DNA of 64,000 nt from the NCBI RefSeq assembly GCF_002804205.1, contig NZ_CP024962.1, forward strand, positions 620,001 to 684,000, given 5' to 3'. The notes below the pieces were generated by a model, which worked only from the letters and a program-made list of their open reading frames with translations, ran no database searches and was not told the DNA's origin. The translations under genes were made by a program, and so were the position numbers. Of this stretch, positions 2,563 to 22,342 are shown piece after piece (the stretch's first letter is position 1; each line of letters starts with the position of its first letter). The DNA is from Entomoplasma freundtii (GTDB lineage Bacteria > Bacillota_I > Bacilli_A > Mycoplasmatales > Mycoplasmataceae).

Positions 2563-2630
2563 CATTCGGAAGTGTCTTGCTTTTCATTTATTTGGGGGGC
2601 GAAGACACTTTCTTATTTAGAAAGGAAGAA

Positions 2631-4547
2631 ATGAAATTTATTAATCTAAAAAACTCAAAAAGAACTGAAAAAAATTTACCAGAAGTGATTACTAGTAATC
2701 AACAAGCAATTAACAAGCCATTAAAAAAGGTTAAAAGTTCTTTTTTTGGAATCGTTTTTAAAAACTACCGTCGTTTTAAATCGTTATCCATCCCAATGAT
2801 GTCTTTAGTTTTTTTAAGCGTACTTTGTTCAATCAGTTTGCCTTTATTAACTCAGCAAATGTCATTCGGAATTTCTAAGCATCTAGCAGAAATAAGCCAA
2901 GTTCCCGGGGCTAACCCTTGGGTTGATGTTACGGGACAATATTGAGGACTAGAATGATATGTCTCAATGTGAATCGCTATTGGGATTACATTCTTCAACA
3001 TGTTAGTAATGTATGTTACCCAATATTTAGCAATTTTATTATCAGTAAAAATTGAAGTTATTTTACGTCAAGATTCTTTGACTGCTTTAGCTAAACAAGA
3101 TATTTCTTATTATTCAGATAAAAAGATTGGGGAAATTTTGACTAAAGTAATTTCTGACACGCAAATTGTCGGAGAACAAGCAAGTCAAGTACCAACCACA
3201 ATTTTACAAGCCATCCTCACGATTTCAGGAACATTAGGTATGATGTTTTATTTTGAATGACATCTTGCTTTAGTGGTGATTGGTGTCTTTGTCATCTTAA
3301 TGACCATTTTAGGATGTTCATTTGGCTTTGTTCAAGGAAAAATCAAGAAAGTTCGTGAAGTACTTACCGATGTCAATGGTCAAGTAACTGATCGAATCAA
3401 TAACATTCGTTTGATTAAGTCTAATGGAACAGAAGATTACGAAACCAATCGTTTCAAAGAAGTCCATAAAGACTACCAAAAAGAATCCAATAAAATGGCA
3501 GGGGCAGCTGCCTTATTAGTTACCACCATCTTTGGTGGGATTGGTCTTCTTCAATTAGGTGTTGTCGCTAGTGCCATGCTAATTTATCAAAATAAACCAG
3601 TAGATGGGCCAGTTTTCTTTTCAACAACTTTTGCCTCTTTCACTCTTGCTCAAGGAGCAATGATTGGGGCCTTATTCCAAGTAGTTACAATTGCTTTAGG
3701 AATGGCCAAGGCCGGAGTTTCGGCAACGCGAATTGAAGAAACGATTAGTGCACCTTCTTTGATTAATCCTCACAACACCACTGGAGAAATTGTTGAAGGA
3801 ATTACGGGTAACATTGTTTTCAAAAACGTTAGCTTTGCTTATCCTGAAAAACCAACGAAAACGATTTTACCAAAATTTGATTTTACTTTTGAAAACGGGA
3901 AATCTTATGCCTTTGTTGGGGAAACTGGTTCAGGTAAATCAACAATCAGTAAATTACTCTTGCGTTACTATGACCCTACAGAAGGTGATATTTTCGTTAA
4001 CGAAAACCAAAACCTTAAAGATGTCGCTTTGGCTTCTTATTTAAATCATATTGGTTATGTGGAACAAGAGCCATCAATTCTCTTTGGCGATGTTTTTGAA
4101 AACATTCGTTATGGTAATTTTGCCGCTAGCGATGAAGAAGTAATGCTAGCCTGCCAAAAAGCCGAACTTCATGAGCTTATTATGGGTTGGCCTTTAGGTT
4201 ATAAAACTATCCTAGGCGAACATGGTTTCATGCTTAGTGGAGGTCAAAAACAACGCCTAGTCATTGCGAGAATGTTCTTAAAAAATCCGCAACTATTAAT
4301 TTTAGATGAGGCCACTTCGGCTTTAGATAATATTGTGGAAAAAGAAATTCAGAGCAAGCTAGATGAATTAATGAAGGGACGAACAACAATTACTATTGCC
4401 CACCGTCTTTCAACAATTAAAAATGCTGACCAAATTATTGTTCTTGGAGCTAATGCCGGTGGCGTTGTCCAAAAGGGTAGTTTTGAAGAATTACGTTCAA
4501 TACCAGGCCACTTCAAAAATCTTTATGAAGCAGGCTTAATGCAATAA
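2631..4547 (+). CDS. ABC exporter, fused transmembrane and ATPase domains
   Basis: A half-transporter of 638 residues of the MsbA/LmrA type. A hydrophilic N-terminal extension of about 50 residues is followed by a six-helix ABC membrane domain (about residues 55-370) and an ATPase domain with Walker A GETGSGKST, signature LSGGQKQR, Walker B LLILDEAT and a switch His in IAHRLST. TGA reads as Trp at 2943, 2952, 2970 and 3258. The ATG at 2631 was chosen because AAAGGAAGAA lies just upstream; an upstream TTG in frame lacks such a site. There is no C39 peptidase domain, so it is not a peptide-processing exporter. The substrate is unknown. It is followed by a strong hairpin terminator. Confidence 0.88.
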
Positions 4548-20415: not shown

Positions 20416-20715
20416 TTAACCAATAATTTCTTGAATTTTAACTTTAGTATATGGTTGACGGTGACCATAAACTTTGTTGACATTCTTTTTGGGATGGTAA
20501 CGAACAACACGGATTTTCTTTTCTTTTCCTTGTTTTAAAATCACACCTGTTACTTTAGCTCCCGCAACAGTTGGGGTTCCAATTTTATCGTTGACCATCA
20601 AGACTTCATCAAAGGTAACAACATCATTTGCTTCACCTGGCAATAATTCCACAAAAATTTCTTGCCCTAGTTCTACTTTGATTTGTTTTCCTCCAGTTTT
20701 GATAATTGCAAACAT
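20416..20715 (-). CDS. rplU: 50S ribosomal protein L21
   Basis: A 99-residue L21 that binds 23S rRNA near L20. It begins [18 protein letters not shown], the family signature, and carries [28 protein letters not shown] at its end in a standard pattern. A CTGGAGG site precedes the ATG. It heads the rplU-prp-rpmA operon, downstream of a good promoter and a structured leader. Confidence 0.97.
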
Positions 20716-20741
20716 TTTTTCCTCCAGTCTAGACTCGCCTA

Positions 20742-20781
20742 GAAATGTGGAACAAATTCTTGTTCACTTGGAAAACATTTC
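20742..20781 (-). promoter_or_regulatory. Structured leader of rplU (L21-leader-like)
   Basis: GAAAUGU (20775-20781) pairs with ACAUUUC (20742-20748), enclosing GAACAA/UUGUUC (20760-20765 with 20750-20755). A small CUAG/CUAG hairpin lies between this and the ribosome-binding site. L21 leaders are known upstream of rplU in low-GC Gram-positives; membership of that family was not tested. Confidence 0.45.
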
Positions 20782-20880: not shown

Positions 20881-20956
20881 TGGTGTCCCTGAGCAGATTC
20901 AAACTGCTGACCTATAGCTTAGGAGGCTATTGCTCTATTCACTGAGCTACAGAGAC
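20881..20956 (-). tRNA. tRNA-Arg (anticodon CCU)
   Basis: A 76-base cloverleaf. The seven-base acceptor stem (GTCTCTG with CAGGGAC, one G-T pair), D arm with AGCTCAGT, anticodon stem ATAGC/GCTAT with loop CTCCTAA, and T arm with TTTGAATC are all visible, and the 3' CCA is encoded. The anticodon CCU reads AGG arginine codons. Confidence 0.95.
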
Positions 20957-21072: not shown

Positions 21073-21381
21073 CTATAATTTTACCACTTGAGAGTCGTGA
21101 GCCCAATGGTCAAAAACTTTCGTGTTGTCTCAACTAAAACTCATATTTTTATTGAACTTAAAATCTCCCTTAATTGCTTGTTCGGGTCCGGCTCCAGAAA
21201 AGGCAAAGCCAATCCCAGCCATACTGGTAATAAAATTGGTTGAAGCATCGATAAGGCTAGCAAGACCCCCTAAAAGTACCCCACTCAAACTTCCACCATC
21301 AACTTCTTTAAGTTCGTTCGGTGCCATTTTGGTCAATCCCTTTGGTATAGTTTTGTCATTAATTTCAAACTTATTTTGCAT
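21073..21381 (-). CDS. Small double-glycine-leader peptide, bacteriocin-like
   Basis: A 102-residue frame with TGA Trp codons near its end. The first 30 residues end in APNELKEVDGG, which matches the double-glycine leader pattern (L-x-x-[IV/E]-x-GG) cut by C39-type peptidases. The remaining 72 residues start SLSGVLLGGLASLID, are Gly/Ala-rich and hydrophobic up to about residue 65 (GIGFAFSGAG), and finish with a polar region containing two Trp and two His. AGGGGTGA precedes the ATG. It lies 24 bases after rsmI on the same strand and ends before a hairpin. A class II bacteriocin-like or signalling peptide is the best reading; no immunity or exporter gene is adjacent, so function is unproven. 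Confidence 0.6.
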
Positions 21382-21405
21382 TCATTCACCCCTAAGGGAT
21401 TCGGT

Positions 21406-22302
21406 TTATTTTTGTTTTTCAACCATTAATTGGTAAATTTTATTTTTTGGTCAACCCGATTCTAAACTAATAATACTAGCAGCCGCTTTTAAAGAGTGGC
21501 CTTCGCTAGTTAGTTTTTGGGTTGCTTGAACAATCTCGTCAAGAGTTCAATTTTTTGACCAATTGGTTTCTTTAGAAACCAAAACCACAAACTCTCCTTT
21601 TAACACCATTTGGTCTGCTGCCACGTAGGCTGCCAACTCACTTATCGGTCCTTGGATAATTTCTTCATTGGTTTTAGTCAGTTCACGCGCAATCATTACC
21701 GAGGTAGTTGGTGGCAAGATTTCAGCTAAAAAGGCTATTGTTTCTTTGATACGGTGAACTGATTCATAAAAAACGATTATGGTCTTTTCTGGTAAGGTCA
21801 TTAAGACATTAGTTAGTTCACGTTTTTTCGCTTCAAAACCACGACTTTTTAAAAAGCCATAGAAATAATGGTTGGGGCTTTCATAACCACTAGCGACCAA
21901 AGCGTGAATATAGGCGGGGCCGACATTCACTCCAGAAACATTAATCTGGTTTGGCAGGCGATGTAAAATCTCCCTAACAATCTTGGCTCCCGGATCAGAA
22001 ATAATCGGCACTCCTGCATCACTAACTAGGGCCATAGATTGCCCTGTCGCAAGGATTTGTTGCAATTTATCAACCCGACTTTGCTCGTTAAATTTATGGC
22101 AAGAAATTAATTTATTTTGAATACCATAATGCTTTAGTAATTGTTCTGTCGTGCGGGTATCTTCACAAAAAATCCAATCGACTTCTTGGAGGATTGTTTG
22201 CGCACGAGGCGATAAATCAGCCAAATTACCGATTGGAGTTCCAACTAAATAAAGAGTAGGTTTTGAAGTTGTCGACTTAAAAGTTTTTTGACAACGAATC
22301 AT
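21406..22302 (-). CDS. rsmI: 16S rRNA 2'-O-methyltransferase RsmI (C1402)
   Basis: A tetrapyrrole-methylase-fold enzyme of 298 residues that methylates C1402 of 16S rRNA in the decoding centre. It has LYLVGTPIGNLADLSPRA near residue 17, FCEDTRTTEQLLKHYGI near 45, LVSDAGVPIISDPG near 92 and VFYESVHRIKET near 175. A C-terminal helix-turn-helix appears only past an in-frame TGA at 21547. ATG 22302 is preferred to the GTG two codons upstream. Downstream of greA by about 40 bases. Confidence 0.93.
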
Positions 22303-22342
22303 AAGCACTTCATCTCATCTCTCTAATTTATTAAAGTTTTAA

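Follow-up and report, generated by a model that had tools for sequence, protein, structure and literature searches.

The analysed stretch of DNA (64,000 nucleotides, hereafter the window) carries a small open reading frame between rsmI and rplU that starts with ATG and, under genetic code 4, encodes a peptide of 102 amino acids (Table 1). The peptide has the sequence, given in two parts, MQNKFEINDKTIPKGLTKMAPNELKEVDGG / SLSGVLLGGLASLIDASTNFITSMAGIGFAFSGAGPEQAIKGDFKFNKNMSFSWDNTKVFDHWAHDSQVVKL; the one TGA codon of the frame is read as tryptophan and lies within the conserved motif FSWDNT. About 25 nucleotides separate the end of the rsmI frame from the start of the peptide, and the Shine-Dalgarno sequence AGGGGTGA sits five nucleotides ahead of the ATG. 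The same Shine-Dalgarno sequence precedes the homologous genes at similar spacing, and translation therefore probably begins at the first ATG; an alternative start at Met19 was rejected, as the position of the ribosome-binding site favours the first ATG. At three loci of other genomes (L072 3022, L081 3154, L086 3248), the peptide genes seem to begin with ATC or ATT straight after GGGGTGATA and the usual start codon is absent there.

Table 1. Features of the peptide locus (window positions) and the unlinked C39 gene (genome positions)
Feature	Position	Strand	Remarks and basis
rplU, conserved downstream neighbour	20416..20778	minus	reading frame and synteny
tRNA-Arg (CCT), downstream of the peptide gene	20881..20956	minus	
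GG-leader peptide precursor gene	21073..21381	minus	102 codons and stop; ORF reading and homologues
Core codons, 72 residues	21076..21291	minus	hydrophobic Gly/Ala-rich part and conserved KG..K....WDN tail; alignment and profile comparison
Leader codons, 30 residues ending Gly29-Gly30	21292..21381	minus	alignment and leader-pattern match (genome 641293-641315)
Shine-Dalgarno sequence	21387..21394	minus	common to relatives at similar distance
rsmI, conserved upstream neighbour	21406..22308	minus	reading frame and synteny
C39-domain membrane protein, 678 amino acids	genome 430674-432710	minus	upstream of ybeY-era-recO-glyS

Leader and neighbourhood of the peptide gene

The preliminary description had read the N-terminus as a double-glycine (GG) leader, and this reading is borne out: the small frame has its own ribosome-binding site and its leader resembles those of class II bacteriocins and ComC/Blp peptides (TIGR01847) in the hydrophobic residue at position -12, the acidic residue at -8, the hydrophobic residues at -7 and -4 and the final GG. 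Also in common with the double-glycine leader peptides of Gram-positive bacteria are the small size of the precursor and the presence of a C39 partner in the genome. There are differences too: here, the precursor and the C39 gene are unlinked, no immunity gene is seen, and the gene is near-universal and vertically inherited, with a conserved KGxxK...WDN tail. The leaders of the homologues have 15 residues; in the alignment, the 30-residue leader of the window peptide is longer by about 15 residues at its N-terminus.

When the own genome was searched with a DNA pattern for E/D at -8, hydrophobic residues at -7 and -4 and GG, 19 matches were found, compared to 13 for the reversed pattern. Only one of the 19 is the N-terminus of a small open reading frame, namely the window peptide, and the search for further small genes with the same leader, suggested in the preliminary description, thus returned the window gene only; leaders without the acidic residue at -8 or the hydrophobic residues at -7 and -4 are missed by this pattern. 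The window peptide has no match in Pfam or NCBIfam, a PDB search with the peptide profile gave no match and PADLOC gave no matches; an AlphaFold prediction from a two-row alignment reached a pLDDT of 40 and was set aside.

In most genera of the family, the gene order is uvrC-greA-rsmI-peptide-rplU-prp-rpmA, and the window adds the tRNA-Arg between peptide gene and rplU. In genus g7, the peptide gene comes after greA and frequently has another GG peptide downstream of it. Several g7 genomes show this second GG-leader peptide, distinct from the first, in an arrangement like that of two-peptide systems (L082 3380-3601, L077 3302-3526, L088 3029-3265). Neither in the window nor in most of the loci read does the peptide gene adjoin a small gene that could be a candidate immunity gene, although an unlinked one is conceivable; no regulator or histidine kinase adjoins it in the loci read.

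A vertically inherited peptide family

Blast searches identified homologues of the peptide in 27 of 60 relatives, and a profile HMM built from 24 aligned homologues detected the peptide in 51 of the 60 family genomes. The expected conservation in relatives was found: the leader and the GG (or AG) are conserved in the alignment of 24 homologues. Over 298 genomes of the order, the same profile gave weaker matches, mostly in family f7, with peptides that have GG leaders and a KGEIK...KWDN tail and are in many cases encoded next to rplU/rpmA. In hhalign, the profiles of the own family and of f7 match each other along leader and tail with 98.5% (E 1.6e-15). Within genera, peptide pairs have a dN smaller than dS (dN 0.04-0.19, dS 0.17-1.4), with the exception of the near-identical pair G017/G023, which differs in two or so changes that are non-synonymous. 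The peptide belongs to a single-copy, syntenic and vertically inherited family that is found over much of the order.

The C39 protein and its co-decay with the peptide

The preliminary description had noted that the ABC exporter of the window has no peptidase domain and had placed a partner elsewhere in the genome, and both statements agree with our data: the exporter is probably the open reading frame at 2577-4547 (plus strand), which has Walker A and LSGGQ motifs, and exactly one match to Pfam Peptidase_C39 exists in the own genome (a single contig of 838,114 bp), at 432255-432665 (E 2e-24), in a membrane protein encoded 209 kb from the peptide gene. The position of the C39 gene upstream of ybeY, era, recO and glyS is shared by most family genomes examined, and the active-site residues Gln, Cys, His and Asp are present in every aligned homologue. 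The best NCBIfam match of this protein, and of the four other C39 proteins scanned, is the Mbov_0121 family peptidase domain-containing ABC transporter (NF045998), which it resembles in having a C39 domain and a transmembrane region. With 125.8 bits over residues 21-490, the score is below the curated cut-off of 500, and this is equally true for the other four (131-332 bits, with 332 and 249 for intact relatives). The own C39 domain also matches the solved peptidase-containing transporters ComA (8hf4, E 6.5e-5) and PCAT1 (4ry2, E 1.6e-4), but the match is confined to this domain, and ComA and PCAT1 are energised exporters.

Unlike members of NF045998, the C39 protein of the own clade has no ATPase motifs: Walker A and the acidic pair of Walker B are gone from the protein of the own genome and of genera g1, g2, g4 and g9, and the C39 protein of genus g10 has also lost Walker A. 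Walker A, Walker B and signature motifs are present in g7, g11 and g12 and in the examples from families f3 and f7. Pfam ABC_tran was found in a g7 protein (4e-16) and not in the two degenerate C39 proteins scanned. In three pairs of ATPase-less C39 proteins, dN was compared over three regions and is lowest in the C39 domain. Since the Walker A and B residues are missing in the own clade, one cannot take for granted that the peptide is secreted there by a normal peptidase-containing ABC exporter, and its translocation along the standard ABC route is in doubt. Where the ATPase domain is intact, a small transmembrane gene lies directly 3' of the C39 gene (L057 2980-3354, L060 7153-7509, L068 3148-3531); it matches no model of Pfam or NCBIfam above cut-off and is missing in the ATPase-less genera g1, g2, g4 and g9.

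Peptide and C39 genes co-occur. Both genes are present in 49 of the 60 family genomes and both are absent from eight, while one has only C39 (G022) and two have only the peptide (G010, G023); Fisher's test gives a p-value of 1.5e-7, which ignores kinship. Among 298 genomes of the order, the numbers are 216 (both), 29 (neither), 46 (C39 only) and seven (peptide only), again with no correction for kinship. Completeness is below 86% in five of the seven genomes that have the peptide only. Families f3, f5 and f9 have many genomes with C39 yet no peptide detected by the models used. On a greA tree with 17 rows, the presence of C39 changes at least five times.

The GG site decays together with the C39 gene. 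In G023, which has no C39, the GG of the peptide is changed to GV and a second peptide carries an in-frame stop; in G031, the C39 gene is broken into fragments and GG is changed to EV; and in G061, C39 is absent, the first peptide is lost and the second has RG where the close relative G028 has GG. In genomes with intact C39, all 31 family peptides read have GG or AG. There are exceptions: the G010 peptide retains GG without a detectable C39, and G064 retains GG although its C39 gene is broken, apparently by a transposon. G022, in turn, retains C39 without a detectable peptide. In G064, the pieces of the C39 gene lie beside a transposase-like open reading frame (L183 583-3245) and the peptide genes are intact, which looks like a recent loss.

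Possible functions of the peptide

The best explanation is that the single C39-domain membrane protein of the genome would recognise the 30-residue leader and cut after Gly30, freeing a peptide of about 72 residues that is probably membrane-associated and helical, with the conserved hydrophilic KGxxK...WDN tail. The freed peptide would most likely have a housekeeping function at the cell surface or membrane, or act in self-signalling, rather than kill competitors; these roles are favoured by the single-copy, syntenic and near-universal state of the pair, and it is this distribution that makes a housekeeping role of the pair most likely. We give a probability of about 0.78 to the reading that the resident C39 protein cuts the peptide, a GG precursor, which likely serves housekeeping.

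The peptide could instead be a class II-type bacteriocin that the C39 protein processes and exports and whose core inserts into the membranes of competing mollicutes. The canonical leader, the hydrophobic Gly-rich core and the tandem GG peptides of some genomes fit such a function, and two models are weakly matched by four members each, that of the class IIb bacteriocins lactobin A/cerein 7B (best E 1.5e-4) and that of the bacteriocin leader. However, the cores of the own family are mostly neutral or acidic and the peptide is under purifying selection. A strain-level bacteriocin is unlikely because the single-copy gene is vertically inherited, lies in a conserved gene order and occurs in almost all genomes of several families, and because an immunity gene was not seen next to it; for a single-copy family of this kind, the antagonistic peptide of the preliminary description, if taken as an accessory one, is not borne out.

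GG leaders also serve signalling peptides (ComC/Blp), and the presence of one peptide and one C39 protein per genome would suit a pheromone that is sensed, as cut core or as a fragment of it, by the same species. We regard this as rather unlikely: no histidine kinase or regulator adjoins the gene in the loci read and the core, with about 63-136 residues, is long for a known GG pheromone.

A different principal substrate or role of the C39 protein, with the peptide unrelated to it, is improbable. A lipoyl-related role has been proposed for gene 0401 of JCVI-syn3A (PMC6609329), and both the 46 order genomes with C39 and no detected peptide and the loss of the ATPase motifs in one clade are compatible with another role, but the co-occurrence of peptide and C39 and the three cases of a decayed GG site where C39 is lost or broken argue for a connection between the two. 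A chance open reading frame whose first 30 residues happen to end in GG, for which one could cite the short frame and the missing Pfam and NCBIfam matches of the window protein, is so improbable that we reject it: homologues, synteny, ribosome-binding site and selection put the gene beyond chance and the conservation found has already refuted this explanation.

The reading of the peptide as a C39 substrate with a likely housekeeping role touches on published work on the minimal cell. JCVI-syn3A gene 0401 encodes a C39 exporter that is kept in the minimal cell, and its likeness to the C39 partner described here is one of family resemblance, as described in PMC6609329. Breuer et al. (2019) identified no double-glycine peptide candidate for 0401 and cite Dirix 2004 for the same absence in other mycoplasmas; the lipoate role given to 0401 is speculative and was proposed because such C39 exporters were reported to lack a peptide substrate (PMC6609329). 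As the preliminary description had remarked, peptides of this type are little described in wall-less bacteria: they are nearly absent from the open-access literature searched, in which we found no report of GG-leader peptides in mollicutes (subscription journals were mostly outside this search). The peptide family is a likely substrate for the mycoplasma C39 protein that was previously reported to have none. Since the GG peptides decay along with the C39 gene, they provide a substrate that can be tested and suggest a possible role for two function-unassigned genes kept by very small genomes. It is also puzzling how a C39 protein that has kept its protease but not its ATPase motifs works without a motor. 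Tentatively, and with somewhat less than even odds, mollicutes may keep a core pair of GG peptide and C39 protein; in one large clade, the exporter would have lost its ATP motor, kept its protease and become an enzyme bound to the membrane that processes a housekeeping membrane peptide.

A literature search on MPN313/MPN571 gave nothing relevant. The small precursors of family f3, which belong to the MPN313 family (NF045747), can likewise be read as GG/AG leader peptides with a hydrophobic part. In contrast to the window family, MPN313 has a different core and C-terminus (RxSPxPxRSA), and the window peptide has no match to the NF045747 model. The similarity between the profiles of MPN313 and the window family spans the leader and hydrophobic part only, and common descent is therefore possible rather than shown. 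One MPN313-family gene adjoins mraZ/rsmH and reads as a GG-leader peptide (L163 1489-1797), and in several f3 genomes GG-leader peptide genes are arranged in tandem (L158 2415-3100, L160 2384-2941, L189 1491-1954).
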